From Novosphingobium sp. (GTDB taxonomy: Bacteria; Pseudomonadota; Alphaproteobacteria; Sphingomonadales; Sphingomonadaceae): a stretch of DNA of 64,000 nt. The stretch covers positions 795,501-859,500 of the forward strand of contig JACKKX010000001.1 of assembly GCA_024236215.1 (NCBI GenBank). Reading direction: 5' to 3'. Position numbers and translations under genes: made by a program. Of the stretch, positions 27,308 through 42,581 are shown one piece after another. The notes beneath the pieces were generated by a model, which was not told where the DNA came from, did no database searches, and saw nothing but the letters and a program-made list of their open reading frames with translations. Positions within the stretch are counted from its first letter, which is position 1; every line of letters starts with the position of its first letter.

Positions 27308-29341
27308 TCAAAGCTCGATCCCGTCGGCAGGATCGAGGCTGGCGCGCCGCGCAGCAGCGCGTTGTTCCAGATCGATTACTCGTCGCTGCGCGCTGGTCGC
27401 CGCCGAAGTGTCGGGCTCATCGGGATCGAATTCATTGGCAGGCAGCATCGCCGGGGGCGGCGCAATATCGACATGACGCTCAATCGCTGGCTCGCGGCGA
27501 ACGCCGTCGCTCTCCGCCTCACCATCAGCCTGACTTCCCTCGCCCTTTCCGGCCTCCTCGGCTGCCGCATCTTCGCCATCGAAATCGGGAATTGGCCCTC
27601 CTCGGGGTTCGATGGGTGCAAGGTGACTCCAGTCATCGGGCCGAGGGTCCGACGATGCCTTTCCCGCAATCGGCGCAGGTAGGACGCGATCGGCCAGTCT
27701 GCGATCTTGATAGTACCTCGCCTTCTTCGCACGGACGGGATGCACGCCCGCCACCATGACGATTTCATCATCCGGCGGCAGTTGCATGATCTCGCCCGGC
27801 GTCAGCAAAGCGCGGGCGGTTTCCGAGCGGGACACCATGAGGTGGCCCAGCCATGGGCTGAGCCTGTGTCCGGCGTAGTTCTTCATCGCCCGCATTTCGG
27901 TGGCGGTGCCGAGCGCATCCGAGACCCGCTTGGCGGTGCGTTCGTCATTGGTCGCAAAGCTGACCCGGACATGGCAGTTGTCGAGGATCGAGTTGTTCTG
28001 CCCATAGGCCTTCTCGATCTGGTTGAGGCTTTGCGCGATCAGAAAGGCCTTGATCCCGTAGCCCGCCATGAAGGCCAGCGCGCTTTCGAAGAAATCGAGC
28101 CGGCCCAAAGCCGGGAACTCGTCGAGCATCAGCAGCAGGCGCTGGCGTGAGTGCCCAGCATCGAGATCCTCAGTCAATCGCCGACCGATCTGGTTGAGCA
28201 CAAGCCGGATCAGCGGCTTGGTACGGCTGATGTCCGATGGCGGCACCACCAGGTAGAGCGTCACGGGGAATGGACCGTCGACCAGGTCCGCTATCCGCCA
28301 GTCGCAGCGGCTCGTGACGCGGGCAACGACCGGGTCGCGGTAGAGGCCCAGGAACGACATCGCCGTCGACAGTACGCCCGATCGTTCGTTCGCCGATTTG
28401 TTGAGCAACTCGCGCGCGGCCGACGCGACCACGGGATGCACGCCATCATCGCCCAGGTGCGGGGTGGTCATCATCGCCTGCAGCGTGGATTCGATCGGTC
28501 GTCGGGGATCGGACAGGAAAGCCGCGACGCCCGCCAGCGTTTTGTCTGCCTCGGCGTAGAGTACATGAAGAATTGCGCCGACGAGCAGCGAATGGCTGGT
28601 CTTCTCCCAATGGTTGCGCTTCTCGAGACTTCCTTCGGGATCGACCAGCACGTCCGCGACATTCTGGACATCGCGCACTTCCCATTCACCGCGGCGGATT
28701 TCGAGCAGGGGGTTGTAGGCAGCCGATGCGGCATTGGTCGGGTCGAACAGCAGGACCGTTCCGAAAGTCTCCCGGAAACCCGCCGTCAGCCCCCAGTTCT
28801 CGCCTTTGATGTCATGGACGATACAACTGCCCGGCCAGCTCAACAGCGTCGGCACGACGAGGCCGACACCCTTGCCGCTGCGTGTGGGAGCATAGCACAG
28901 CACATGTTCGGCCCCGTCATGCCGCAGATAGCTGTTAAGCTGCTTGCCCAGCACCACGCCCTTGTCGTCGAGCAGCCCGGCGCTGCAAATTTCGGAACGT
29001 GTCGCCCAGCGCGCCGACCCGAAGGTTTCTGCCTTCCGCGCCTCCTTCGCGCGCCAGATAGACAGGGCGATGGCCGTGATTATTGCCGCGAAAGCGCCCG
29101 ATACGGCGATGTAGGCACCATGCTGGAAGACCTGCGGCGCATAGGCGTCGAACGAGAACCACCACCAGAAGAAGGCTGGCGGCGGATAGATATATTGACC
29201 GCCAAGCGTGAACCACGGCCTCCCCAACTCGGGCTGATAGGCCAAAGCTGCGGCTGTCCACTGCGTTGCAGACCATATGCCCGCCAGAACCATCGCCAAA
29301 ACGACTACGATCTGACCCCATAAAACGCGCGATGCCGACAT
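27308..29341 (-). CDS. traG: TraG/VirD4 type IV coupling protein
   Basis: A 677-residue coupling protein. Two N-terminal membrane helices (about 8-28 and 72-95) are followed by the ATPase domain with Walker A APTRSGKGVGLVVPTLL (about residue 152) and Walker B LLLMLDEFPALGRL. A Pro/Glu-rich tail follows from about residue 560. It brings the relaxase-DNA complex to the Trb channel. It ends one base before copG. Immediately upstream (29342-29528) I see no gene. Confidence 0.94.
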   Translation of the reverse strand: MSASRVLWGQIVVVLAMVLAGIWSATQWTAAALAYQPELGRPWFTLGGQYIYPPPAFFWWWFSFDAYAPQVFQHGAYIAVSGAFAAIITAIALSIWRAKEARKAETFGSARWATRSEICSAGLLDDKGVVLGKQLNSYLRHDGAEHVLCYAPTRSGKGVGLVVPTLLSWPGSCIVHDIKGENWGLTAGFRETFGTVLLFDPTNAASAAYNPLLEIRRGEWEVRDVQNVADVLVDPEGSLEKRNHWEKTSHSLLVGAILHVLYAEADKTLAGVAAFLSDPRRPIESTLQAMMTTPHLGDDGVHPVVASAARELLNKSANERSGVLSTAMSFLGLYRDPVVARVTSRCDWRIADLVDGPFPVTLYLVVPPSDISRTKPLIRLVLNQIGRRLTEDLDAGHSRQRLLLMLDEFPALGRLDFFESALAFMAGYGIKAFLIAQSLNQIEKAYGQNNSILDNCHVRVSFATNDERTAKRVSDALGTATEMRAMKNYAGHRLSPWLGHLMVSRSETARALLTPGEIMQLPPDDEIVMVAGVHPVRAKKARYYQDRRLADRVLPAPIAGKASSDPRPDDWSHLAPIEPRGGPIPDFDGEDAAAEEAGKGEGSQADGEAESDGVRREPAIERHVDIAPPPAMLPANEFDPDEPDTSAATSAQRRVIDLEQRAAARRASLDPADGIEL

Positions 29342-29528: not shown

Positions 29529-30662
29529 ATGTTTATCGAGCGCCGTATCAATCAGTCGAATGGGAAAGTCGAACTCTGGAAGTGCCAGTGGGAGAATGCC
29601 GAAGGGCAGGCAGCAAAGAAAGTCTATCTATCAAAAATTTGCGACGAGCAGGCGATCGATAAGGATGCAGAAGGGGGATTGAAGGAAGAGGCTGCGATTT
29701 GCTGGTCCTACGGCCGCACCTTGGGCAACATCGCAGTCACAGCGCCTGCTCTGTTGGGCCATTTTCCTGCAAAGTCTGGCAACGATGCTCAATTGCCCTG
29801 TGACTTCGCGCATGCCGGGAAATTCCGTCACGGCGCCGAGCGTCTGTGGTGCAGGACCCATCAGACCCATTGGGGAATCAAGGCGGATATCGAGGCGCTG
29901 GAGATTCACGGCGAAATGCGCTGCGCCAACTATCAGCAGGCCATGAACTATGTGGTCTCGCCGCTGACGGTAAATGTCACGGAACATGCGGAGGTCGGGA
30001 TTTGGTGCTCAATGCCAGCAGCGCTTTCAACTTTGCCGATCACGCCGAGACCGCCTAAGATCCACGTGCATGTGCGTGATGATGTTGGCGGCAAGAAGTC
30101 CATCGATCGTGATTTCAGTGCAATCTCGACTCTGTACAGCAGCGGGTTAGGCCTCTTCCAAAATCAGGAAATCACGCGGGTCAACATCACGCCACCGGCA
30201 GCCTATGACTTCGTTCGCGCAATCGAAGCGAACAACGAAATGAGCTGCATCAGTTGCAGCAGTTGCGGCTACCCACACCTCGACCTAGCTGATTTCGCCG
30301 ACACACCACATCGGAAGCATTTCTGCGGAAATTGCGGGCGGGACAGTACGTGGAGCAAAGAGCCGATCATCTCGACGCCGTTGAAGCCGCTTCACGACAG
30401 TTTTGCGCGGACCCTGAAATACGAAACGCCGAATCGCACGCTCAATCTCGACGACTATGCCGGTTGTGATTTTGCGGTCTGGGCTTCGACGCCGGCAATC
30501 GTGTGGACGGCGGAGCGCCCGCAGGAATTCGGCATCCATGTTCATGTCCAGAATTCCAAGGGGCGAATTGTTGACGATACGTTTGGGGAGGTAATTTATC
30601 AGGGCGCACTGCTTGAAAGATCGGCCCTGATCAGCGCCATGATGGCTCGCACTGTCGTCTAA
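29529..30662 (+). CDS. Unknown protein with zinc-binding clusters (cargo)
   Basis: A 377-residue protein of no family that I recognise. Two probable zinc sites are visible: a Cys/His-rich stretch with ERLWCRTHQTHWG near residue 120, and a zinc ribbon CISCSSCGYP ... FCGNCGRD around residues 240-275. Two similar beta segments, PPKIHVHVRDD and FGIHVHVQNS, each followed by an acidic turn, suggest an internal duplication. The ATG follows AAGG by seven bases. The strand is opposite to the transfer genes and GC3 is lower, so it is cargo. It may act with the following wHTH, nuclease-like and HEPN genes. Confidence 0.7.
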   Translation: MFIERRINQSNGKVELWKCQWENAEGQAAKKVYLSKICDEQAIDKDAEGGLKEEAAICWSYGRTLGNIAVTAPALLGHFPAKSGNDAQLPCDFAHAGKFRHGAERLWCRTHQTHWGIKADIEALEIHGEMRCANYQQAMNYVVSPLTVNVTEHAEVGIWCSMPAALSTLPITPRPPKIHVHVRDDVGGKKSIDRDFSAISTLYSSGLGLFQNQEITRVNITPPAAYDFVRAIEANNEMSCISCSSCGYPHLDLADFADTPHRKHFCGNCGRDSTWSKEPIISTPLKPLHDSFARTLKYETPNRTLNLDDYAGCDFAVWASTPAIVWTAERPQEFGIHVHVQNSKGRIVDDTFGEVIYQGALLERSALISAMMARTVV

Positions 30663-30744
30663 ACAAACTCGGAAACATCGTCGAAATTGGGGAAGTTCGT
30701 TCCTGTTATGTTTACTGCCTGGGGCGATCGAGTAGGGTTGAGGC

Positions 30745-31059
30745 ATGAGTAGTCGACCGAACGCCCCCCAGCATTTTGAAGCAATACGCTCTGCCCTACA
30801 GGCCAGGGCAATTCTCGACGTCCTCGCGAAGGAATCGACCGCGAACAGTCGGCTATTGGAGACATGGCTTGCCAGCATCGGCCTCGCGGCTTCGAACCGA
30901 GTCATGATCGACCTTCTCGAACGATTGGAAAAGGACGGACTCGTTCGAATGGAAAAGATCGATGCGTACCGCGTGGTTCGAATCCGGCGTTTTGGGGGTG
31001 AGGTGGCATCCGGGCTGGAGCACGTGGATTGGATTGCCAAGCCCGAAATGCCAGAATGA
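30745..31059 (+). CDS. Winged-helix DNA-binding protein (cargo)
   Basis: A 104-residue protein with a winged-helix pattern: RAILDVLAKESTANSRLLET, a second helix pair (NRVMIDLLERLEKDGLV) and a strand wing (RMEKIDAYRVVRIRR). The general layout resembles the small phage family VpaChn25_0724, which has a similar tail-end KDGLV-type wing. It sits 82 bases after the zinc-motif gene and seven bases before the nuclease-like gene, so it is probably the regulator or DNA-binding subunit of the cassette. Confidence 0.65.
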   Translation: MSSRPNAPQHFEAIRSALQARAILDVLAKESTANSRLLETWLASIGLAASNRVMIDLLERLEKDGLVRMEKIDAYRVVRIRRFGGEVASGLEHVDWIAKPEMPE

Positions 31060-31066
31060 TTTGATC

Positions 31067-32497
31067 ATGGGCAGCCACCAGCGCACCATCCTGATCGCGG
31101 ATTTCGAGATGCCACGAGGTGCGGTCGATATCGAACAGTTGATGTCGATGCCGCGCGCAGGGTGGGAGCATCTGCGCGCGCAGATCAATGTGCGGCGGCG
31201 ACAGGATCGTTCCAAGCCAATAGCCAAGTGCAGGCTTTGCGAAGGCAGTGTTTTTATCAGGGCGCAGGCAACTGAGGATAGCCACGTCCCGATGTACGCG
31301 CACTATCCGGAGGCGAGCAAAGATTGCCCTTGGTACGAGGGCAACAATCTTCACCCTGATGATGCGCGGGCAGCACAATATCAGGGACATCAGGAATCGG
31401 CGCTGCACCGCCGACTGTGTTCGACGATCGAGCAGTTAGTTAAGGCCGATCCGCGTTGCACAGGCACCACGGTGAACACCTATCTTCGGTCCGAAATCCA
31501 CAAGCGTGGCCGCTGGCCTGATGTGTATGCCGAGTTGTTGGGACTCGGCCGCTTCGCTCTCGAGGTGCAATTGTCGAAGCCATTCGCTCCAGAGATCGCG
31601 GCCCGTCACTTGCATTATGATGCCGAGGGGATCGCCTTAGTGTGGATCTTCAGTACACTTGAAGATCCCATGCCCCAGGGGTTTCATGATGTCGTGGCGA
31701 TGCAACGAGGCAACGCTTTCGTCTTCGATGACGAGGCCGAGGCGGCCTCGATCGAGCGCGGTACACTTGTCCTAAAATGTTTCATGGAAAACGGTGAGGG
31801 CGGCTGGCGTGAGTCCAAGCTGATCGTGCTCGATGATTTGCAGACGGGCGTGGGACGATCGGCATTTGTCGAGGATTGTCGTTCGGAGGCTTTGAAACTG
31901 CGCTGCAAGCAGGATCGATCGCGCTGGTGGGACGCGATGAAGAAGGCCCGCGAGGAGCGACCGAACTCGCCAGAGTACAGCGAGCACTATGAGGATGCCT
32001 GGGCCGATATGAAGGCAGGTGTCCCCGGCCTATGGGAATGGGAGCGGGATTTCTGGACGGAGCGGTCCAACCGTGCCCGTGCGCACACCGCGATGCTTTA
32101 CGCGATCCTATGCTCGGTCGCTCACAGCGCCGACGCTGGTCGGCCGGTCCTCCACATTACGAAGTTTTCCGGCGACAGTGCTGTATTGTCGATGCTGAAC
32201 AGCAAGCTGAACGGGACTGATTTCAAGCATTGCGCCAGCCTGATAGAGCTCTTCGTTCGAGCGACGCCATTGTCGGATTTGCTCGAAAAGGTCTCGCTCA
32301 AACGGATAATCGCAGAGGCCAAGAAGACAGACGTCCAGATCAATAACGCCCACCCGTTGTGGCTGGTCATGGCTCGCCTTTTCCCGGAGGTGCTGGACGG
32401 CCTGGTCAGGGCTGAGCTCGCAGACCTTGGACAGTTACCTCGCTGGGCATCGACGCGGTCAGAAATTCAAATCTACAATCTCGGGACTGCGGAATGA
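31067..32497 (+). CDS. DUF6035/CoiA-like putative nuclease (cargo)
   Basis: A 476-residue protein. Residues 45-95 contain a zinc-finger-like set (KCRLCEGSVFIR ... YAHYPEASKDCPWY). A nuclease-like core follows with HKRGRWPDVYAELLGLGRFA and LEVQLSKPF; the Asp and Glu-x-Gln pattern is that of PD-(D/E)xK enzymes of the CoiA group, and the whole resembles DUF6035. The C-terminal half is helical with no motif I know. The ATG at 31067 is the first after the wHTH stop. It overlaps the HEPN gene by four bases, so both are co-translated. Nuclease activity is inferred. Confidence 0.7.
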   Translation: MGSHQRTILIADFEMPRGAVDIEQLMSMPRAGWEHLRAQINVRRRQDRSKPIAKCRLCEGSVFIRAQATEDSHVPMYAHYPEASKDCPWYEGNNLHPDDARAAQYQGHQESALHRRLCSTIEQLVKADPRCTGTTVNTYLRSEIHKRGRWPDVYAELLGLGRFALEVQLSKPFAPEIAARHLHYDAEGIALVWIFSTLEDPMPQGFHDVVAMQRGNAFVFDDEAEAASIERGTLVLKCFMENGEGGWRESKLIVLDDLQTGVGRSAFVEDCRSEALKLRCKQDRSRWWDAMKKAREERPNSPEYSEHYEDAWADMKAGVPGLWEWERDFWTERSNRARAHTAMLYAILCSVAHSADAGRPVLHITKFSGDSAVLSMLNSKLNGTDFKHCASLIELFVRATPLSDLLEKVSLKRIIAEAKKTDVQINNAHPLWLVMARLFPEVLDGLVRAELADLGQLPRWASTRSEIQIYNLGTAE

Positions 32498-33294
32498 AGC
32501 CGTTGTTCTCCCAGGCGGAGCTCGAAGCGATTGCCAGCGCCCTCGGCGATACCGAAGCAGGCTTGAAGGGCACCGAGATCGAACTGCTGATTTCAACATG
32601 CGGCATGACGGATCCCGGCCCCATCACCAAGCGCACAAGGATCTACAACGCTTTCGCACAAAGTCAGAACCAGAGGCGTGATCGCACCCGCGTGCTCGGG
32701 TTCATTCGACACGCCATGAAGCCCGCACGGTACGTTCGCGAACCTGGGCGCTACGAACCCATGCGGACCAATCTGAATTTTGCACTGGCGTTTGCTGGGC
32801 TAGTCGTGACCGAAGCCGGCGATATCGAGTCCGTTCCTGTCGCAACAACGCTTTCGGAGGCTCAGCGGCGCGCAAGCGAATTGCGTGCCGATCTGGAAAC
32901 GCGCGGCGTGCATCCAGATGTCCTGGAATTTTGCCGGGCGGAGCTCGTAGCCGACGACTATTTTCATGCCGTCCAAGAGGCCGTGAAGAGCGTCGCGGCA
33001 AAAATGCGGGCGAAGACGGGATTGACCGATGATGGCTCGACACTCGTGGACCGTGCCTTGGTCGGCAACCCGCCGATGATCGCGATCAACTCACTTGCAA
33101 GCGTGAGTGAACAAGGCGAGCAACGGGGCTTCGCCAACCTTGTACGTGGGACTTTTGGCATGTTCCGCAATCCGACAGCCCATGAGCCCCGCATTCATTG
33201 GCCGATGTCAAAGGGCGATGCACAAGATCTGTTGACGCTGGTTTCACTGATCCATCGCCGTCTTGATGCCAGCTACATGCCTGCAAGAGGATAG
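32494..33294 (+). CDS. TIGR02391/Hypoth_Ymh HEPN-type protein (cargo)
   Basis: A 266-residue protein. Its second half has the TIGR02391 pattern: DYFHAVQEAVKSVAAKMRAK, then GFANLVRGTFGMFRNPTAHE and LLTLVSLIHRRLD. The FRNPTAHE segment supplies the R-x4-H motif of HEPN ribonucleases. The N-terminal half is unassigned. HEPN proteins of this kind are common in abortive-infection and toxin systems, where they cleave RNA. Coupling to the nuclease-like gene by ATGA overlap suggests one functional unit. Confidence 0.75.
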   Translation: MKPLFSQAELEAIASALGDTEAGLKGTEIELLISTCGMTDPGPITKRTRIYNAFAQSQNQRRDRTRVLGFIRHAMKPARYVREPGRYEPMRTNLNFALAFAGLVVTEAGDIESVPVATTLSEAQRRASELRADLETRGVHPDVLEFCRAELVADDYFHAVQEAVKSVAAKMRAKTGLTDDGSTLVDRALVGNPPMIAINSLASVSEQGEQRGFANLVRGTFGMFRNPTAHEPRIHWPMSKGDAQDLLTLVSLIHRRLDASYMPARG

Positions 33295-33338: not shown

Positions 33339-35072
33339 TTAGAGCCCAATGCCCCGCCCCCTGCCCATCGACCAATCCACCCCGCCGTCCCCACGCATCA
33401 CACCCGAAACGTACTTGCCCAACCGATTGTCGAGTGCCGGTGTCCAGGGGACCAACGCGAAGCCCAACCCATTGTCGATCATGGCGAAGCGGCCCGATGC
33501 CAGTTGCACCTGCCGCCGCACCGATCCCGCAACAAATTCCCCGGACTTGGCGGGGGTGTAGGGGAGCCCGAACTCCCTCACCATTTTCTCGCCGATGGCG
33601 TCCAGTTCGCGCCGATTGAGCGTATCCAGCAGGTTGCGGGCAAAGGCGAAGCGTTGGGCATCGTGGCGGGCCAGACCCTGACCAACAAGATGCTCGGCGC
33701 GAGCCTGCATTGCATCCGCCACCTCGGCGCCGAACCCGCCGCCCAAGTCTATCTTCTGTTGGTCGAGATTGCGCCGGTCAAGCCAGGTTGCTCCGGGTGC
33801 CTCGATCTGGGCTGCGATGTCGAGATCGGAGCGGACTGCCAATGCCACTCGCGCTCGGCCACGGCGGTCGTCGAACTGGCGCAGCTCAACGATCGCGCCG
33901 GGCCGACAATCGCCGGTTTCCTCAAGTCCGGGCAAGGTGAGGTGATGGGTTCGACCATCGATCCCATCGACGATCGCATAGGCAGCGCCGGTCAGCTCAT
34001 CATGCAAGCCGCGCTCGACCAGGCGCCCGATGATTGGCTGGGCAGTTTCGCCTGCAAGGTAGTAGCTCGACACGCCCCGCTCGATGCCACGCTCCTGCAT
34101 GGCGCGATGCATCCGTTTGATGATGTCCCCGCGCATGCCAAGTTCATGTAGAGCTGGCTCGGCATTGTCGGCGATGACCCAGAGGCCGGGCTTGACCTGT
34201 TCGGCCAGAGTCAGTCGTTCGAGCTTGCGCAAACGTCCGAGTTTCAGGGCATGATCTGAATCGGGGCGGGCTTCAGGATCGGGGGCCGTGTCGATCATGC
34301 CGTGCCGCTGCTGGTGGCGAACGAGGTCACGGTCGATTTGCGTCCAGCGTTCCGCCTCGACCTGCCGCTCCAGAGATCGCCGGACGTCCAGTTCGGTCTT
34401 CGGCCCCAGCTCACGGGTGATCAGCTCGCCCGCTCGCCCGCGCATACCTTCGCGGATGTAATCACGCGAGATGACAAGGTTCTGCCCGTCATCGCCAACG
34501 CCGCGCACGATGACGTGAACATGGGGGTGCTCCGTGTTCCAATGATCGATCGCCGCCCAGTCGAGCTTGGTGCCGAGATCCTTCTCGACCTGGACCATGA
34601 GCGCGCCGGTGAACTCCCTCAGGTCGGTCATTTCCAATGCGTCGTCCGGTGAGACGATGAAGCGGAAATGATGACGGTCCTGCTGGCAGTGTTCGGCAAA
34701 CGCATCGCGATCGACCTCGGCACCGTCTGGGCCAAACAGCTTGCCGGGAGCGTCGTCTCGAGTGACGCCATCGCGCTGTAGATATTTCAGGTGGGCGGCG
34801 AGCGATAGCGAACGGGCATGACGCACGACACGCGCCTTGATCACCGCCATCCGTGCGCGGCTCCCCAGCCTGTGCCCCGCACGCAGACTTGCCGCGCGCC
34901 CCCTTCCGAAGGTCGAGTTACGGGGGCTCCGGACTTGGCCGCTTGCTGAAACGATGCCGCCCGCACGCCGCGCGGACGTAAGCGCCTGGGCTATGGCCGG
35001 GCGTGATCGTTCGTCACCGCGAGACCTGATGCGCCCTGGGCGAATGCGAATATCGCTATCGTCCCGCGTCAC
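33339..35072 (-). CDS. traI: Relaxase (MOBP-type, DUF3363) of conjugative transfer
   Basis: A 577-residue relaxase. The N-terminal part is basic and low in complexity, followed by MAVIKARVVRHARSL. The metal-binding His cluster is HWNTEHPHVHVIVRG (about residue 190) with upstream DRHHFRFIVSPDD. A DUF3363 region occupies the C-terminal half. The GTG at 35072 (VTRDDSDIRIRPGRIRSRG) matches the usual family start; the frame remains open to 35219. It should nick the oriT candidate just upstream and lead DNA to TraG. Gene name by analogy with RP4. Confidence 0.88.
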   Translation of the reverse strand: MTRDDSDIRIRPGRIRSRGDERSRPAIAQALTSARRAGGIVSASGQVRSPRNSTFGRGRAASLRAGHRLGSRARMAVIKARVVRHARSLSLAAHLKYLQRDGVTRDDAPGKLFGPDGAEVDRDAFAEHCQQDRHHFRFIVSPDDALEMTDLREFTGALMVQVEKDLGTKLDWAAIDHWNTEHPHVHVIVRGVGDDGQNLVISRDYIREGMRGRAGELITRELGPKTELDVRRSLERQVEAERWTQIDRDLVRHQQRHGMIDTAPDPEARPDSDHALKLGRLRKLERLTLAEQVKPGLWVIADNAEPALHELGMRGDIIKRMHRAMQERGIERGVSSYYLAGETAQPIIGRLVERGLHDELTGAAYAIVDGIDGRTHHLTLPGLEETGDCRPGAIVELRQFDDRRGRARVALAVRSDLDIAAQIEAPGATWLDRRNLDQQKIDLGGGFGAEVADAMQARAEHLVGQGLARHDAQRFAFARNLLDTLNRRELDAIGEKMVREFGLPYTPAKSGEFVAGSVRRQVQLASGRFAMIDNGLGFALVPWTPALDNRLGKYVSGVMRGDGGVDWSMGRGRGIGL

Positions 35073-35173
35073 GATCTTGCCCGCGATGTGCGCCTGAGCT
35101 GCGGAAAACCGGCAATTCCGAGAAGCGGGAACATCGCGGCATTTCTCCGCACATCGTAATTTAGTCCAGAAAA

Positions 35174-35239
35174 GCCTTGTGAAACAAGGCACCGACCGGG
35201 CGAAAAGGGCACCGCACATCGCCGCTCTTTATCCTGCCC
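35174..35239 (+). other. oriT: Candidate origin of transfer (oriT) with IncP-like nic site
   Basis: A perfect inverted repeat GCCTTGT-GAA-ACAAGGC at 35174-35190 lies 39 bases before TATCCTGCCC at 35230-35239. The latter equals the nic core of RP4/IncP origins (YATCCTG followed by a pyrimidine). The site lies about 100-160 bases upstream of the relaxase start, where oriT is normally found. There is no gene between 35073 and 35328. Confidence 0.65.
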
Positions 35240-40702: not shown

Positions 40703-41029
40703 TCAGTCGTTGTTCTGGCGGCGCGCGCGCGACCAGATGAGGTTGAAGGTCTTGCCATCTTCGTCGTCGAAGAGGTTGGCGAAGATCGGAGCGGTGAAGC
40801 TGGGATCGTCGAGCTTGACCGACAGATAGTCGCGGCCTTCGTTCGAGCGCTTGGTCCAGGCGGCACCGATTTCCGCGCGGCCGACGAAGACCCGGTGCGA
40901 AGGGGCGTTCTCGTTCGCCATGCCGTCTTCGGGCTGGATGCGGACGTTCTTGGTCTGGACGCTCATCGTGACGATTTCGCCCTGGTAGCTGCCGTCCGTC
41001 GCCTTCTTGAAAGTGCCGATGTTTGCCAT
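40703..41029 (-). CDS. DUF736 family protein, copy 2
   Basis: A 108-residue protein of the canonical DUF736 type: MANIGTFKKATDGSYQGEIV, VRIQPEDGMANENAPSHRVF, EIGAAWTKRSNEGRDYLSVK and FTAPIFANLFDDEDGKTFNL. The family occurs almost only on conjugative elements and has no known function. A GGAG site (AAGGAGATACGAC) precedes the ATG. It converges with the XRE gene. Confidence 0.92.
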   Translation of the reverse strand: MANIGTFKKATDGSYQGEIVTMSVQTKNVRIQPEDGMANENAPSHRVFVGRAEIGAAWTKRSNEGRDYLSVKLDDPSFTAPIFANLFDDEDGKTFNLIWSRARRQNND

Positions 41030-41638
41030 GTCGTATCTCCTTGATGTTGGGTCGAGCCCGCGCCCATCGCGGCCTCGATGGCTGACGACCGGCGGGGGGA
41101 TGGCCCCGACGCACCTGCAAGGCCGGAGCGATCAGCGGAGGACGGTGCAGCGACGGCTTTCTTGTCTCGCGAGGAATGCGGGGAACCCGCAGGGGAAGAA
41201 AGTTGGCGCGGAGCCGTTGCGGATAGGGGAAATGAGGCGAAGCCGTCCCCTGCCAGACAAGCCATTGGAGAGGACGCATGGGCGTGGGCATTCCGCAACA
41301 TCGCCCAGGAACCGCCATGCATCGGCGAATCTCGATAGGCTGACTGACGGCACATGCCTGCGGCATCGTGAACGGTGCTGTTCCAGCGGGCTGTCCCAAC
41401 CACCCGATGCTTTGACCGAATGAGACCACTGTACCGGGGTGATGTGGCTGGCAAATAACGGTGCAGCGACAGGTCAGCTGAACAGGGCGCGCGTAAAATG
41501 TTGGTCAGGCCGAACCCGTCACCCGCCCGTCATGGCAATCTTCGTCGCGGAAAACTGGCAGGTAGAACTGCCTGACCAAGTCCGCCATCTTTTTAACAGA
41601 TCCCGCCCACATCCGCCGGGTGCTGCCGAACGGGGCAT
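41030..41638. other. About 600 bases with no supported gene
   Basis: Several open frames exist on both strands but none has a good ribosome site, a recognisable motif or matching codon bias. The leader of the DUF736 gene must lie at the left end. The GC-rich centre (about 41150-41350) could hold an RNA or a remnant gene, but I see no structure that proves it. Confidence 0.4.
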
Positions 41639-42205: not shown

Positions 42206-42367
42206 TCAGCCGAACGGATCATATTCAGCCAGAACATTGACTGGATCGCCGTCATATTCGGCGCTGGGCATGACGCCGAAGGCATCGCCGCTACGGAACA
42301 AGGTTATGCAGACCATCAGGGTTTTTGCGAGGCTCCAGGCGTGACGTTGTGCGATCGGGAGGGGCAT
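42206..42367 (-). CDS. Small protein, 53 aa, with strong ribosome site
   Basis: A short frame starting MPLPIAQRHAWSLAKTLMVC and ending DPVNVLAEYDPFG. AGGAG lies seven bases before the ATG, unusually good for a frame of this size. It has one hydrophobic segment in the middle and an acidic tail. No family is recognised. It stands alone before the copper cluster. Confidence 0.55.
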   Translation of the reverse strand: MPLPIAQRHAWSLAKTLMVCITLFRSGDAFGVMPSAEYDGDPVNVLAEYDPFG

Positions 42368-42581
42368 GTTGGGTCTCCTGCCTTGCGGCGGGGACCATCC
42401 CCGCTCGACAGGTGCCCGATGTGTCGGAACGACGACCGCAATCACCGCGAGCGCACAGCGCTGCGGCCGCACGCGAATGCGTAGCGGACCCTTTACGGGT
42501 TGATGGCGTCAGGTCGTCGTTCGGACCAAGGATAGCACCGGCAAAGAGCGGGGTGATCTCCGCAGCAGGAGACGGGTCGTG

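Follow-up and report, generated by a model that had tools for sequence, protein, structure and literature searches.

A 64,000-nucleotide stretch of Novosphingobium sp. DNA (the window; contig JACKKX010000001.1, positions 795,501 to 859,500) carries, between a gene for a coupling protein and one for a relaxase-type protein, three maintained, co-inherited genes that move as a unit, one of which is a homologue of PD-lambda-3_B. Window segment 30687-33312 is best explained as a self-contained, horizontally moving module. It is probably an anti-phage unit that works like the abortive-infection system PD-lambda-3 with a different sensor half, a reading based on its gene order, its edges and flanks, defence genes among its neighbours, the congruence of its protein distances, the homology of its HEPN protein and the PD-(D/E)XK-like motif of the protein encoded before it. 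The features concerned are listed below, with protein lengths in amino acids (aa).

27308..29341, minus strand: coupling protein of the TraG/VirD4 type, bordering the cargo on the left (PF02534, T4SS-DNA_transf, 1e-100)
29529..30662, plus strand: gene 1, 377-aa cysteine/histidine-rich protein, a neighbour judged to lie outside the module
30687..30744, plus strand: promoter/operator region of the module (aligned over 10 loci; GTTC-N7-GTTT element)
30745..31059, plus strand: gene 2, 104-aa winged-helix-like small protein, proposed regulator (13 of 56 loci; NF050184, 1.6e-13; phrog_436)
31067..32497, plus strand: gene 3, 476-aa proposed sensor nuclease (invariant residues, family matches, structure model)
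32494..33294, plus strand: gene 4, 266-aa TIGR02391/Ymh HEPN protein, proposed RNase effector (PF09509; PADLOC PD-Lambda-3_B)
33339..35219, minus strand: relaxase-type protein (DUF3363), bordering the cargo on the right (PF11843, 3.8e-90; PF03432, 6.8e-5, just under the cut-off)

An earlier note on this DNA had described four plus-strand genes within a minus-strand traG-to-relaxase block, the third beginning seven bases past the stop of the second and the last two overlapping as ATGA. The open reading frames (ORFs) and family matches bear out this arrangement, and the coordinates bear out both junctions.

Genes that belong together

Relatives of gene 3 were found at 56 loci (designated by L numbers), namely 49 on genome contigs, two on viral contigs, three on plasmids (L029, L033, L034), L045 and the window itself. 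Genome and viral contigs were scanned with a 13-sequence gene-3 alignment, and the 56 include near-duplicates (L058-L061; L078/L093; L079/L096). The small gene, gene 2, is present in 13 of these loci, always directly upstream of gene 3, and the HEPN gene in ten, always directly downstream; nine of the ten HEPN loci have both, and the tenth, L053, begins at a contig end. Gene 1 occurs in two of the 56 (the window and L068), so the four-gene unit put forward in the earlier note was rejected; the conserved co-occurrence on a variable backbone that it proposed as a check holds for genes 2, 3 and 4 and fails for gene 1. Two copies are interrupted. At L068 gene 3 is split into two frames beside an intact HEPN gene, and on a Sphingobium plasmid (L029, 6001-9329) the HEPN gene is split by an element of the insertion sequence IS21 type, the remaining module being intact.

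Across 297 related genomes, in counts that include the window's own genome and weak matches, gene 3 is found in 21, the HEPN gene in 13 and the small gene in nine. Eight HEPN matches in these genomes reach at least 74% identity, and six of them adjoin gene 3. The other two (78% and 74% identity) both belong to genome G005, which has no gene-3 match, and lie one beside a ParB-type gene and the other beside a 183-aa ORF; the HEPN protein thus also occurs apart from gene 3. The protein distances of genes 2, 3 and 4 are congruent in seven loci (Mantel p 0.0008-0.008), as expected of a linked unit. IMG/VR, searched with single proteins, gave no relative of gene 3 or of the HEPN protein, and the viral contigs searched with the gene-3 alignment gave two relatives of gene 3.

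All three genes appear to be under purifying selection. The ratio of nonsynonymous to synonymous substitution rates (dN/dS) against relatives is 0.065-0.087 for gene 3 (four comparisons), 0.044-0.067 for gene 4 (six comparisons) and 0.114-0.207 for gene 2 (five comparisons). The dS values behind these ratios are high (0.8-2.6), and dS was saturated in three more comparisons of genes 2 and 3. With dN/dS well under 1, synonymous sites being near saturation, genes 2 to 4 are taken to be real, maintained coding genes.

Edges and flanks of the module

When window positions 20001-45000 were compared with 13 loci by blastn, the block of similarity started between 30687 and 30799 and ended between 33294 and 33312 in seven of them (L029, in two pieces, L036, L037, L038, L048, L049 and L052). 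The block of L039 begins at a contig end, and four loci that have no HEPN gene (L040, L051, L055, L057) are similar over part of genes 2-3 only. At L044, which lies on the same contig as L068, the similarity reaches left to 29472 and covers gene 1. Two short matches fall elsewhere, from L038 to window 42334-42504 and from L055 to window 40721-41269.

The 4-kilobase flanks of the ten HEPN loci were also compared, four of these flanks being shorter or empty. A left flank with DUF932, ParB-like and strawberry-notch-type genes is common to six loci, L068 retaining about 440 bases of it, and among the right flanks one type is common to five loci and another to two. The flanks of the window match neither type found in the relatives, apart from gene 1, which is common with L068. 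Because the flanks vary and the similarity stops at the edges, genes 2 to 4 are the smallest unit common to the different surroundings. Five of ten scanned flank proteins match PADLOC models: PD-Lambda-2_B and _C (L050), RmrA and AbiEii (L047) and PDC-S06 (L055). For genes 2 to 4 the data therefore support a transferable unit of conserved order and varying surroundings, with known defence genes nearby in several relatives.

The HEPN protein

Gene 4 matches PF09509 at 2.5e-40 (137.5 bits, cut-off 25) and TIGR02391 at 137.2 bits (cut-off 39.45), and its assignment in the earlier note as a TIGR02391 HEPN protein is confirmed far above the cut-offs. PMC3710099 treats PF09509/TIGR02391 as a HEPN family. 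The R-x4-H motif reads R225-N-P-T-A-H230 and stands at the matching place in all nine sequences examined. PADLOC identifies the protein as PD-Lambda-3_B (1.2e-80 and 1.2e-54), and it is 47% identical over 259 residues to the Escherichia coli copy (L125). A sequence search of the PDB with the HEPN protein gave no match.

TIGR02391 relatives occur in 120 plasmid records, of which 12 were opened, one of them lacking annotated genes. Apart from the module copy on the Sphingobium plasmid, direct neighbours of the HEPN gene include genes for an HSDR_N-AAA protein (L032, L137), a DUF2326 protein of the ABC-three-component kind (L031, L134), a 520-aa protein encoded in a TIR operon (L135) and an uncharacterised 285-aa protein (L138). 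Downstream of it lie Shedu (L139), an AbiJ_NTD3/Abi_C protein (L140) or Hachiman (L030).

The proposed sensor

The 476-aa protein comprises a zinc-finger-like N-terminal part (C55, C58, H79, C87), a PD-(D/E)XK-type core with the motif P151-D152-x13-E166-x-Q168, and a helical C-terminal part. In an alignment of 35 relatives (34 of the other 55 loci, with fragments and near-duplicates excluded), C55, C58, H79, C87, P151, D152, E166, Q168 and S170 are identical in all 35. The structure model (predicted local distance difference test, pLDDT, 87.4; predicted template modelling score, pTM, 0.85) has a helix at 112-126, strands at 131-136, 153-157 and 161-168, a helix at 174-186 and a strand at 190-195, followed by the helical part. 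As modelled, this order of elements corresponds to a PD-(D/E)XK core, in which D152 would precede the second strand and E166 and Q168 would lie in the third.

Gene 3 itself falls under the cut-offs of CoiA_nuc (PF06054; 17.5 bits, cut-off 20.3), DUF6035 (PF19500; 16.1 bits, cut-off 22.6) and DUF7830. At E<=0.01, CoiA_nuc is matched by 32 of the 35 aligned relatives (best 4.7e-8), DUF7830 by 19 and DUF6035 by 18. The earlier description of gene 3 as DUF6035/CoiA-like is upheld to the extent that weak matches exist and are stronger in the relatives, and falls short in that all of those for gene 3 are under the cut-offs. Proteins of this CoiA-like/DUF6035 kind are mostly annotated here as hypothetical. 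PADLOC 2.0.0 gave no family for gene 3 at E<=1 and a single weak match (0.0095) for one of the 35 relatives. A PDB sequence search with gene 3 returned nothing usable (seven matches, E 0.22-0.94). Among the 50 Foldseek matches listed for the model, the highest probabilities (0.35-0.60) belong to 3dnx, 6qnz, 1rzn, 7edb and 4qbn (3dnx 0.60, N.BspD6I 0.47, 1rzn 0.44, EcoT38I 0.41), none of them significant; we take these five to be nucleases or proteins of the PD-(D/E)XK fold.

Some gene-3 relatives have other genes downstream. In L055-L057 gene 3 is 66-69% identical and the small gene is present, and DUF6088 and AbiEii genes (L055) or their relatives (L056, L057) follow, then a gene for a 554-aa VRR_NUC/TPR protein (L055, 8001-12874; L057, 7938-12845). 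Gene 3 and the gene after it lie 56 bases apart in L056 and L057; in L055 the two overlap by four bases if a TTG start is used. These loci are possibly a second variant with another toxin. At L051 (7860-14165), genes for a weakly HamA-like 317-aa protein and a HamB-like 1209-aa protein lie 175 bases downstream of gene 3. Both this pair and the DUF6088/AbiEii genes may be neighbours of gene 3 rather than partners.

The small gene and its promoter element

In Pfam, nothing matches gene 2 at an E value below 0.08. The family that comes closest is NF050184, which groups phage proteins (1.6e-13; 50.6 bits, under the cut-off of 65), and gene 2 matches phrog_436 at 1.6e-9. Since no family match lies above its cut-off, the term winged helix-turn-helix is a label taken from the appearance of the sequence. 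In 12 copies, 35 of the 104 columns are invariant.

An element of the form GTTC-N7-GTTT is found 46-49 bases before the start of the small gene in all 13 loci that have it; in the window it reads GTTC-CTGTTAT-GTTT (30699-30713), 46 bases 5′ of the ATG. The background expectation per 150 bases is 0.0086 for GTTC-N7-GTTC or GTTT and 0.0044 for the exact box. Exact GTTC-N7-GTTC boxes precede recA and lexA in the window's own genome, and PMC12700426 states this motif for Caulobacter. The invariant final T weakens the idea that the element is a plain LexA box, and for this reason the binder could be either LexA or the small protein. Among 27 scanned loci without the small gene (16 others, being fragments, near-duplicates or overlooked, were left out), five have GTTC-N7-GTTC or GTTT within 150 bases, and in four of them (L058, L078, L079, L097) it is the exact box, at a distance of 33-38 bases. 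Taken with the element, these four boxes hint at a possible SOS control of the gene-3 family. A genome-wide motif was also considered and not borne out: GTTCNNNTTATGTTT has one copy in the window's own genome and two in 20 relatives, against six copies of its reversed control pattern.

Comparison with known systems

The reference for PD-lambda-3 was an E. coli chromosomal locus (L125), in which the gene for a 159-aa protein matches the whole length of the PD-Lambda-3_A model (2.3e-100) and a TIGR02391 gene matches PD-Lambda-3_B at 1.2e-179. Of 5426 complete E. coli genomes, 57 contain similar DNA, and in 34 of these the similarity spans 80% of the query or more. At L125 (3312-6070) a Mrr_cat restriction-endonuclease gene follows the pair, beside a ydeT fimbrial pseudogene. 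PD-lambda-3_A shows a PD-(D/E)XK pattern, FPD with LEFKK some way after it, and it is labelled PD(D/E)XK in a table of PMC10952713; in PMC13190303, PD-lambda-3 serves as a control for abortive infection. The module resembles this system in that its HEPN protein is homologous over the whole length and is directly preceded by a protein with a PD-(D/E)XK-like motif. It differs in that gene 3 is three times longer than the 159-aa component A and has a zinc-finger-like part, and in the small extra gene that leads its operon.

Within the Ymh family gene 4 is a member with the R-x4-H motif, yet its partner is a CoiA-like protein, whereas PMC3710099 lists solo proteins, proteins fused to pMORC, AbiJ-NTD1 and AbiTii, and operons that include restriction-modification genes. 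Gene 3, for its part, resembles CoiA/DUF6035 nuclease-like proteins in its weak family matches and its P-D...E-x-Q core pattern, although it stays under both family cut-offs. PMC9519451 mentions a CoiA-domain defence system without, in its accessible text, stating a pairing with this HEPN protein. The nearest arrangement on plasmids is a pair in Agrobacterium Ti (L032, 2659-5792) and Rhizobium (L137, 1147-4292), where the same HEPN gene follows a gene with a restriction-type nuclease domain with a 4-base overlap; the partner there is a 778-782-aa HSDR_N/AAA protein and not a CoiA-like one. An AbiEii gene lies near this pair, and a three-component ABC set is present in Ti.

No description of a CoiA-like/HEPN pairing was found in the literature covered, which largely excludes subscription journals, and the accessible text of PMC13092281 does not describe one. 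The earlier note had called the combination unrecognised, which is accurate for the sensor half, for which PADLOC 2.0.0 has no model, and inaccurate for the HEPN half, a PD-lambda-3_B homologue. Its suggestion of an abortive-infection shape, with a nuclease-like protein, a HEPN partner and a regulator, agrees with the nuclease-like/HEPN pairing in a conserved unit once gene 1 is removed. Judged from these comparisons, the part that appears to be new is the sensor half, the HEPN half and the pairing of a PD-(D/E)XK protein with HEPN being already known from PD-lambda-3.

Proposed mechanism and alternatives

DNA sensing, activation of an RNase, an abortive outcome and damage-responsive control are what we infer for the module. 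The 476-aa protein would bind, and probably cut, invading or damaged DNA by means of its zinc-finger-like part and PD-(D/E)XK-type core, as its motif, family matches and model suggest. Its state would be passed to the HEPN protein, with which the ATGA overlap points to translational coupling. The HEPN protein, to judge by its R-x4-H motif, its family and the reported behaviour of PD-lambda-3, would then cleave RNA and stop or kill the infected cell. The 104-aa protein, LexA or both may keep the operon low through the conserved promoter element, and DNA damage could raise its expression.

Several results weigh against this reading. The Foldseek search with the gene 3 model gave no match at E<=0.001, and most PD-(D/E)XK enzymes have K at the position where gene 3 has Q, which makes its catalysis uncertain. 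The structure model of the HEPN protein is poor (pLDDT 64). Most gene-3 loci (46 of 56) lack the HEPN gene, among them L051, whose gene 3 is a close relative (83% identical) and has the small gene. The three-gene set is seen only in one group of closely related sphingomonads, so that a single joining event may explain it. The promoter element is one base off the exact LexA box in all 13 loci, and a generic promoter scan was empty at the element, with no excess over shuffles in the region. An hhalign comparison of gene 3 with E. coli PD-lambda-3_A gave a probability of 0.3% and thus no relationship visible at the profile level. Component A had no match in the window's own genome at E<=10, where four of 14 controls were detected, and a search of this genome and ten relatives gave none, although no control genome gave a signal, which leaves the absence unproven. 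As component A was sought and not found, the module is not filed as PD-lambda-3.

The many gene-3 relatives without a HEPN gene, and the zinc-finger-like and D/E/Q residues that are invariant in 35 of 35, would also fit a direct DNA defence, with the 476-aa protein destroying invading DNA by itself in the manner of a restriction nuclease and HEPN being a fallback or a separate passenger. In the window's own clade, however, 10 of the 11 loci retain the HEPN gene beside gene 3, L051 being the exception, and the overlap or close spacing of genes 3 and 4 and their strong purifying selection likewise make this explanation unlikely. A toxin-antitoxin pair, with a HEPN toxin held inactive by the 476-aa or the small protein and defence as a by-product, would agree with the ATGA coupling, with a small regulator-like gene in front and with HEPN families being known as toxins, according to PMC3710099. 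It is decidedly unlikely, as a 476-aa zinc/PD-(D/E)XK-type protein would be an unusual antitoxin, the two HEPN copies of G005 do without gene 3, and elsewhere the HEPN gene is found with different partners.

It is very unlikely that the module is a CoiA-like DNA-uptake or transfer-control device acting on DNA of plasmids or of integrative and conjugative elements, not on phages. The CoiA_nuc similarity of the relatives and the location within a transfer region would suit such a device, but the relatives lie mostly outside traG-relaxase sites and, where scanned, beside phage-defence genes, and the HEPN partner is homologous to PD-lambda-3_B. A chance accumulation of unrelated cargo genes at a site prone to insertions would describe gene 1 well, and the surroundings of the relatives are rich in cargo; for genes 2 to 4 it is hardly probable at all and already disfavoured, since order, spacing and edges are the same in nine complete loci with differing flanks. 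The abortive-infection unit with a PD-lambda-3-like HEPN half thus stays the preferred reading.

Gene 1 and the surrounding element

Gene 1 is judged to be separate cargo outside the module. Its relatives occur in five of the 297 related genomes, the window's own included, and in one plasmid record; they include copies in genome G164 (L113, 59%) and in Azospirillum (L035, 33%). An ImmA/IrrE-type gene and another small gene lie close to the gene 1 relative at both of these loci, and each of the two is related to its counterpart at the other locus (51% and 39% identity). These neighbours suggest that gene 1 of the window is the lone member of a separate cassette.

The cargo sits within the conjugation genes of a conjugative element; further out, the window contains genes for TrbL, T2SSE/TrbB-like, P-loop_TraG, SLT, peptidase S26 and RPA (replication initiator) proteins. 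The G+C content is lower in the cargo (0.551, 0.581) than in the flanks (0.649, 0.630). A match to a LexA-type N-terminal domain lies near the left end of the window, at 315-515 (1.8e-9, under the cut-off).

Implications

A wider and tentative possibility is a modular immune design with an exchangeable, damage-responsive sensor and killer. Under LexA-type control, a family of CoiA-like DNA sensors may be joined in one sphingomonad clade to the Ymh-HEPN RNase (ten loci) and in another to a DUF6088/AbiEii toxin pair (three loci), and the same HEPN protein may serve unrelated PD-lambda-3_A, HSDR_N-AAA and ABC-three-component partners or lie next to Shedu. DNA ends arising from phage entry or replication would be what the sensor reports, and HEPN would act as a general-purpose killer. 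If the proposed reading of the module is true, the module and PD-lambda-3 would have the HEPN half in common and differ in the protein that forms the sensor half, which would give a compact, testable case of abortive-infection effectors common to unrelated sensors. It would also provide a first function for CoiA-like/DUF6035 proteins.

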